This document shows positions 16,568 to 18,578 of a stretch of DNA of 55,009 nt, in pieces (position 1 is the stretch's first letter; every line of letters starts with the position of its first letter). This DNA is from an uncultured bacterium (GTDB lineage Bacteria > Cyanobacteriota > Vampirovibrionia > Gastranaerophilales > Gastranaerophilaceae). The stretch spans positions 1 to 55,009 of the forward strand of contig CASFCQ010000022.1 in NCBI GenBank assembly GCA_949293185.1. Direction: 5' to 3'. The notes under the pieces were generated by a model that did not search any database, had not been told where the DNA came from, and worked only from the letters and a program-made list of their open reading frames with translations. The position numbers were made by a program, and so were the translations under genes.

Positions 16568-17842
16568 TTACTTGCAGCTGCAGCAGTTTAAACCTGCCTG
16601 CTCTTTTAATTTAGCAGCCTTGTCTGTATGTTCCCACGGAACATCTATATCTGTTCTGCCCATATGACCGTATGCAGCAAGCAGCTGATAGAATTTGCCG
16701 CCGTTTTTAGCAGGCAAACCTCTCAGGTCAAACTGTTTGATGATTGCAGCAGGTCTGAGGTCAAAGTTTTCCTGAACAAGGTTAGAAATTTCATCGTCTG
16801 TGATAACACCTGTACCGAAAGTATCAACCATAACGGAAACAGGCTGTGCAACACCGATAGCGTAACCGAGTTCAACCTCGCATTTTTGGGCAAGACCTGC
16901 AGCTACGATGTTTTTAGCAACATAACGTGCGGCATAAGCAGCAGAACGGTCTACTTTTGTAGGATCTTTGCCGGAGAATGCGCCGCCGCCGTGACGAGAA
17001 TAACCGCCGTATGTATCTACGATGATTTTTCTTCCTGTCAAACCAGCATCGCCCTGAGGACCGCCGATTACGAATCTGCCTGACGGGTTGATTAAGTATT
17101 TTGTATTTGCATCAGGTTTGATAGCATCGTTTTCAAATACAGGATTGATAACTTTTTCGATTAAATCCTGTCTGATGATTTCCTGAACTTCTTTGTTGTC
17201 GGAAACGCCTTTGATTTCAGGGTCGTGTTGTGTTGAAAGAACGATAGTATCGATTCTTGACGGTCTGCCGTCAACGTATTCAACAGTAACCTGAGATTTT
17301 CCGTCCGGTCTTAAATATCCTAAAGAACCGTTTTTTCTGACTTGAGCAAGTCTGTAAGCCAGTCTGTGTGCAAGGCTGATAGGCAGAGGCATAAGTTCCG
17401 GAGTTTCGTCACATGCAAAACCGAACATAATACCCTGGTCGCCTGCGCCAACGTTTTCTGTTTCTGAAGCAGATGTATCAGAATGGTCGTTTCGTGATTC
17501 GAGGGCTTTGTTTACGCCGCCTGCGATATCTGTAGACTGTTCGTCAATAGATGTCAAGACAGCACAGTTTTTGTAATCAAAACCGCCGCCTTCAGCACCT
17601 GCATAACCGATATTTTTAATAGTATTTCTTACTACTGCGGGGATATCCACGTAGCAGTCGGATGTAATTTCTCCGCAAACAAGAGCCATACCTGTTGTTA
17701 CAGTAGTTTCTGCAGCTACTCTGGAGCTTTTGTCTTTTGTAAGAAATTCATCCAAAATTGCGTCAGAAATCTGGTCGCACACTTTATCCGGGTGACCTTC
17801 TGTTACAGATTCTGACGTAAAAAGAAATCTTTTTGATGTCAT
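16568..17842 (-). CDS. metK: S-adenosylmethionine synthetase
   Basis: Cytosolic MetK, 424 residues, making SAM from methionine and ATP. Key motifs are [55 protein letters not shown] and [20 protein letters not shown]. It is some 30 residues longer than the E. coli type because of an insertion before GAGDQG ([20 protein letters not shown]) and a short Cys tail (NCCSCK). Cyanobacterial MetKs have a similar length. ATG 17842 follows AAGGAAAGGG, which is part of the structured leader at 17843-17934. The gene appears monocistronic, with its own terminator. Confidence 0.97.
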
Positions 17843-17934
17843 TTTGTTATGTTCCCTTTCCTTACGGTGGTGGCACCGCTTATTATACCCGGGTGACTCT
17901 CCGGGATTAGGAACATGTTAAATCAAAGGAAAAT
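17843..17934 (-). promoter_or_regulatory. Structured metK leader, candidate SAM-responsive RNA
   Basis: Read on the minus strand, the leader can fold as a three-way junction. P1 is GUUCC (17914-17910) with GGAAC (17855-17851). P2 is CCCGG (17905-17901) with CCGGG (17892-17888) around an 8-nt loop. P3 is CGGUG (17878-17874) with CACCG (17869-17865) around a CCAC loop. The P1 3' strand overlaps the AAGGG ribosome site. An upstream UUUCCUU (17933-17927) is complementary to AAGGAAA (17862-17856), which would create a pseudoknot. The position before metK suggests SAM control. It matches no SAM class I recall; not tested. Confidence 0.5.
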
Positions 17935-18122
17935 CAGGGTCAAACAATGGAATAAACACATTTACATAGCTTAATCAATTGAAGCTTTTTAAACTTTTTT
18001 ATTCTGCCGGTTCAGAAATGAAATTGTTAATTTTTGGTTAAAAAACAAAGAACGATTAAAAAACAGAGCAATAATATAGGTGTTGAGAGAAAAGATAAAT
18101 AAGTAACCGAAAGGAGAACATT

Positions 18123-18578
18123 ATGAGATTTTTAATAAAGAAAACACCTGATACATTTTTAAAATCAGTTAATGATGAAATCAGTTCAATACTTAACAGA
18201 AACTTTGGCAATTTGTATCCTGAATACGGTTTTTCCGAAGATGCGGACAAATTGATGATGCCTGTCGAAATTAAAGAAAAAGAAGACCGTTTTGAAATCA
18301 AAGCCGAGCTTCCGGGCGTTAAAAAAGAAGATTTAGACATAGATATGGATAAATCACACATCACTATTAACGCTAAAAAAGAAGAAGAAAGAGAAGAAAA
18401 CTCCAAGACTTATAAAAAATCAGAATTTCAATATGGTGAATTTTCAAGAACAGTTTACTTCTCTGAAGAGATTGATACTGAAAATACAAAAGCAAAACTT
18501 GAACATGGTGTTTTAAGAATCGAAGCACCTAAAATGAAAAAAGAAAACAATAACAACAAAAAACTTGTTGTAGAGTAA
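18123..18578 (+). CDS. Small heat shock protein (Hsp20/alpha-crystallin)
   Basis: A 151-residue cytosolic holdase chaperone that keeps unfolding proteins soluble under stress. The alpha-crystallin domain covers about residues 40-140: VEIKEKEDRFEIKAELPGVKKEDLDIDMD, then ITINAKKEEE and the GVLRIEAPK strand. The N-terminal arm is short (about 40 residues). ATG follows AAAGGAG. The upstream 280 nt, shared with divergent metK, show no CIRCE element. The gene is monocistronic with a clear terminator. Confidence 0.93.
   Translation: MRFLIKKTPDTFLKSVNDEISSILNRNFGNLYPEYGFSEDADKLMMPVEIKEKEDRFEIKAELPGVKKEDLDIDMDKSHITINAKKEEEREENSKTYKKSEFQYGEFSRTVYFSEEIDTENTKAKLEHGVLRIEAPKMKKENNNNKKLVVE

Follow-up and report, generated by a model that had tools for sequence, protein, structure and literature searches.

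In the window, that is, the whole 55,009-nt stretch of DNA analyzed here from an uncultured bacterium of the family Gastranaerophilaceae, the metK mRNA probably starts with a small hairpin (P2) that has been kept by natural selection. On balance we tentatively read it, at a little under an even chance, as a genus-specific 5'-terminal hairpin that acts at this end of the message, most likely by slowing 5'-end-dependent decay, and that does not hide the ribosome site. The product of metK makes S-adenosylmethionine (SAM), and metK leaders have given several riboswitch classes. An initial annotation of the same DNA had drawn this leader as a SAM-responsive RNA with a three-way junction of helices P1, P2 and P3 and a pseudoknot; the letters and pairings it named were all found in the metK leader, on the minus strand upstream of the ATG at 17842 (Table 1). 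As detailed below, its view of a new metK leader RNA held insofar as the leader is structured and without an Rfam match, SAM classes included, but the architecture and mechanism it proposed did not.

Table 1. Features of the metK locus and its leader in the window.
Feature	Position	Strand	Basis or remark
metK, S-adenosylmethionine synthetase, 424 aa	16568..17842	-	ORF; Pfam S-AdoMet_synt_N, E 4e-43
P1 3' arm, GGAAC	17851-17855	-	seen in sequence
Ribosome-binding site, GAAAGGG	17854..17860	-	11 nt 5' of ATG; invariant across genus
P3 inserted hairpin, GCGGUG-CCAC-CACCGU, 4-nt loop	17864..17879	-	in 3 of 23 leaders
Conserved hairpin P2, CCCGG-AGAGUCAC-CCGGG	17888..17905	-	covariation; single copy per genome, metK only
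Predicted mRNA 5' end, AAU, +1 at about 17908	17906..17908	-	from a 6-nt discriminator
P1 5' arm, GTTCC	17910..17914	-	in promoter discriminator, directly after -10; helix not supported
-10 box, TAACAT	17915..17920	-	genus leader comparison; consensus scan
Proposed pseudoknot strand, TTTCCTT	17926..17932	-	promoter spacer; not supported
-35 box, TTGACC	17938..17943	-	genus leader comparison; consensus scan
Conserved box TTGATTAAGCTATGTAA, possible transcription-factor site	17962..17978	-	core conservation

Leaders of metK were collected from the genus of the window, in which the gene was present in 22 of 23 sampled genomes and, with two copies in one genome, provided 23 leaders; 19 of these were distinct and were aligned. 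When the structure was left free, RNAalifold returned P2 and nothing else. All five pairs of P2 were formed in each of the 19 distinct leaders, as was a sixth pair, which spans a bulged A (alignment G22-Y28). Changes on both sides were detected in four of the five pairs, a level reached in none of 500 shuffles, with the reservation that such a tally counts sequences and not independent events and that the genus is one clade. As a control, partners slid out of register scored far worse than the true pairing. At one position the pair was found as GC, AU, CG and UG, and this variety of pair types speaks for repeated selection. Because of this covariation, the metK leader is considered to hold an RNA structure under selection, and the P2 of the initial annotation is thus a conserved, covarying helix. 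The loop was conserved as AGAGUMAY and was more conserved than the stem (mean entropy of 0.23 versus 0.53 bits). By eye, the loop GUCA of the window leader could pair with a UGAC that overlaps the start codon; this pairing was rejected since it is broken in leaders with a GUAA loop (L007, L011 and L018). Folding energy was examined as well: the isolated 95-nt stretch had a z score of -2.2 against shuffles, 6 of 200 of which folded equally well, and this advantage was lost when longer upstream sequence was included (z of -1.05). Beside the leader lies a divergent ORF, 18123-18578 (+), that by eye resembles a small heat-shock protein (Hsp20).

How widely P2 occurs was determined with a covariance model built on the leader. 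In the 22 genomes with metK, one match was found per metK copy, at the metK leader, and a second convincing site was not found. When the model was applied to a 146-genome sample of the family, matches were detected only in the seven genomes of the window's genus. No Rfam family, SAM classes included, matched the window at gathering scores, and the matches up to an E value of 10 around the metK leader included no riboswitch model, in agreement with the initial annotation, which recognized no SAM-I, II, III, IV or V consensus in it.

We related P2 to the promoter. All 23 genus leaders carried TTGA(C/T)N and TA(A/C)NAT separated by exactly 17 nt. The distance from the -10 box to the P2 stem was 9 nt in all 19 distinct leaders, a constancy that could also be explained by shared ancestry within one genus, and the distance from the stem to GAAAGGG varied from 4 to 27 nt in the same set. 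The fixed distance on one side together with the variable distance on the other indicates that P2 is tied to the mRNA 5' end rather than the ribosome site. With a discriminator of the usual 6 nt, the metK mRNA of this genus would begin about 3 nt before P2 and thus leave about three unpaired nucleotides ahead of the stem. When the window RNA was folded from this predicted start, the ribosome site was mostly open (mean unpaired 0.92), and it was also open in most, though not all, relatives folded in the same manner; in L020, for example, it was mostly paired (0.10). P2 would thus leave the ribosome site unhidden.

Such an arrangement resembles the 5'-terminal stabilizing stem-loops of the Escherichia coli ompA and papA and Bacillus subtilis aprE leaders, in that the metK leader of the window likewise has a single hairpin, with a stem that covaries, which does not depend on the ribosome site and lies at or near the predicted mRNA 5' end; it differs from them in its conserved loop sequence and in that its start and its effect on decay are predictions. 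An mRNA with few unpaired 5' nucleotides is a poor substrate for 5'-end-dependent decay, and RppH of B. subtilis needs two such nucleotides and prefers three or more (PMC3997798). Three unpaired nucleotides would still be usable by an RppH-like enzyme, and protection may therefore be partial. A slowing of 5'-end-dependent decay by a hairpin near the 5' end would be the most likely route of action. Simple protection by a hairpin leaves unexplained why conservation is stronger in the loop than in the stem; the loop AGAGUMAY may help to stabilize the fold or be recognized by a factor. Judged from sequence, protection of the mRNA end best fits the placement of P2, and recognition of a ligand or protein fits its loop.

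Most metK leaders of the family outside the window's genus were found to share a different element, CCGG-GUYGGAAUUAAAAA-MCUUA-CCGG, followed by a short linker and then AAUUAAGGAG. Its 5-bp stem, mostly GCCGG/CCGGC, covaries; among 118 distinct cores, stem pairs 2 to 5 were always standard and pair 1 was standard in 109. In 32 of 32 leaders, CUUA in the loop is the complement of the UAAG in the ribosome site, with bases so invariant that covariation is neutral on this pairing. Pairing of CUUA with UAAG would make the element an H-type pseudoknot, and the metK leader of these relatives is thus likely to be an H-type pseudoknot that holds the ribosome site. A model of the element matched 115 of 240 genomes of the window's class, all within the window's family; three of the 115 were weak and chance-like, which leaves about 112 genomes with the pseudoknot leader and none of these in the window's genus. 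The idea that the window hairpin is a worn-down form of this pseudoknot was discarded, as the model matches no leader of the window's genus. Wherever downstream sequence sufficed, the gene after the element was metK, except for one degenerate copy, and when a collection of named genomes was scanned with a pattern, the matches listed were mostly titled Gastranaerophilales, Melainabacteria or bacteria without a finer name. Among candidates for second genomic sites, L265 proved to be a metK copy at a contig end, and four more were inside coding sequence or chance-like. L264 in genome G271 is a degenerate second copy of the element, without ribosome site and without metK gene.

The linker of the pseudoknot leader reaches lengths of 85 nt and may hold an extra hairpin; inserts of several hairpin-like kinds were observed in L041, L043-L045, L066, L069, L071, L073, L076 and L077. 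Two pseudoknot leaders, L063 and L106, have a shorter loop from which the AAUUAA part is absent, and the stem of L106 is also altered (GCGG/CCGC). No Rfam model matched the pseudoknot leader, those of SAM/SAH, SAM-II and SAM-V included, and a search by title and abstract in an incomplete library found nothing that resembles it. The SAM/SAH riboswitch is an H-type pseudoknot that engages the metK ribosome site through a loop (PMC7367207), a plan that the leader of these relatives would share. This leader differs from SAM/SAH in its sequence, in that its pairing strand is preceded by a 14-nt loop (GUYGGAAUUAAAAA), and in that this strand lies directly beside the stem. As metK is the sole gene of the pseudoknot leader, SAM is the first ligand to consider. 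The expectation of a new-looking RNA able to pair with the ribosome site was thus borne out in the metK leaders of the wider family. We consider it about an even call that metK of the family is controlled by a riboswitch class not yet described, most likely switched by SAM and built as an H-type pseudoknot from the covarying 5-bp stem and the CUUA-UAAG pairing, and that the window's genus instead has its own 5'-terminal hairpin. The pseudoknot leader is the stronger riboswitch candidate of the two. SAM-I riboswitches (RF00162; L285-L289) were observed in 9 of 97 family genomes and in none of four sampled genomes of the window's genus.

As an alternative to protection of the mRNA end, P2 could regulate metK without the involvement of P1, either as a small sensor for SAM or some other metabolite or as a binding site for a protein, in the position that the pseudoknot element occupies in other genera. 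This would fit the stronger conservation of the loop relative to the stem and an element present once per genome, at metK only; the promoter, moreover, resembles that of relatives whose metK-leader RNA can pair with the ribosome site. An action of P2 in SAM sensing is possible. By contrast, P2 has just 18 nt and one conserved loop, which is little for an aptamer, and a second conserved partner was not found in the metK leaders of the genus. In a metK tree rooted at the midpoint, the hairpin-bearing genus formed a single clade (support 98/94) whose neighbors, g33, g19 and g16, have neither the hairpin nor the pseudoknot element, so that direct replacement of one by the other does not follow. 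We regard this alternative as somewhat unlikely.

Control of metK could also be mainly transcriptional, exerted through the box upstream of the -35 element, with the hairpin secondary. The box core, GATTAAGCTATGTAA, was present in most genus leaders and also in genus g33, which is without the hairpin, and TTGATTAAGCTATGTAA had 25 sites in the genome at up to three mismatches compared to seven for the reversed control. A regulator for the box was not identified, however, most of the 25 sites are without a placement relative to genes, and the covariation of the P2 stem would be left unexplained; we thus find this reading doubtful. One box site, L272 (two mismatches), is located 59 nt 5' of an isopropylmalate-synthase-like ORF.

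The architecture originally drawn for the window, a translational SAM riboswitch in which the P1-P2-P3 junction and the pseudoknot hide the metK ribosome site, was examined helix by helix. When the genus leaders were compared for covariation, P2 was retained but P1 and P3 were not. P1 showed no doubly changed pair among the 19 distinct leaders, of which 8 leave one end pair open and 4 leave an inner G-C pair open; the 5' arm of P1, moreover, is probably not transcribed, which argues against P1 as the helix that hides the ribosome site. P3 was found in the window, L004 and L010 only, such that 20 of 23 leaders are without it and the three-way junction is not conserved. A search for P3 as a repeat element revealed no further exact copy in the genome; on the plus strand, the P3 region (17865-17878) scores terminator-like. 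The 5' strand of the proposed pseudoknot, although complementary to AAGGAAA at 17857-17863, sits between the -35 and -10 boxes. SAM-III (SMK box) and SAM-VI share with the window a metK leader that needs no terminator, and the drawing resembles their three stems; both classes require a three-way junction (PMC6914780), whereas the window conserves one of the three stems, forms no conserved three-stem junction and matches neither Rfam model. Thus, although every drawn pairing exists in the window, metK is a usual target of SAM riboswitches and an RNA that starts upstream of the P1 arm would have a less open ribosome site (0.57 versus 0.92), the broken P1, the rarity of P3, the promoter positions of two of the strands and the lack of a Rfam SAM match even at E values up to 10 render this architecture highly improbable.

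Taken together, Rfam has no family for the metK leaders of these gut bacteria, uncultured relatives of cyanobacteria, and the window hairpin offers a compact and testable 5'-end element. If the pseudoknot leader found in other genera binds SAM, it would add one more independent way of sensing SAM, so far in one family only.
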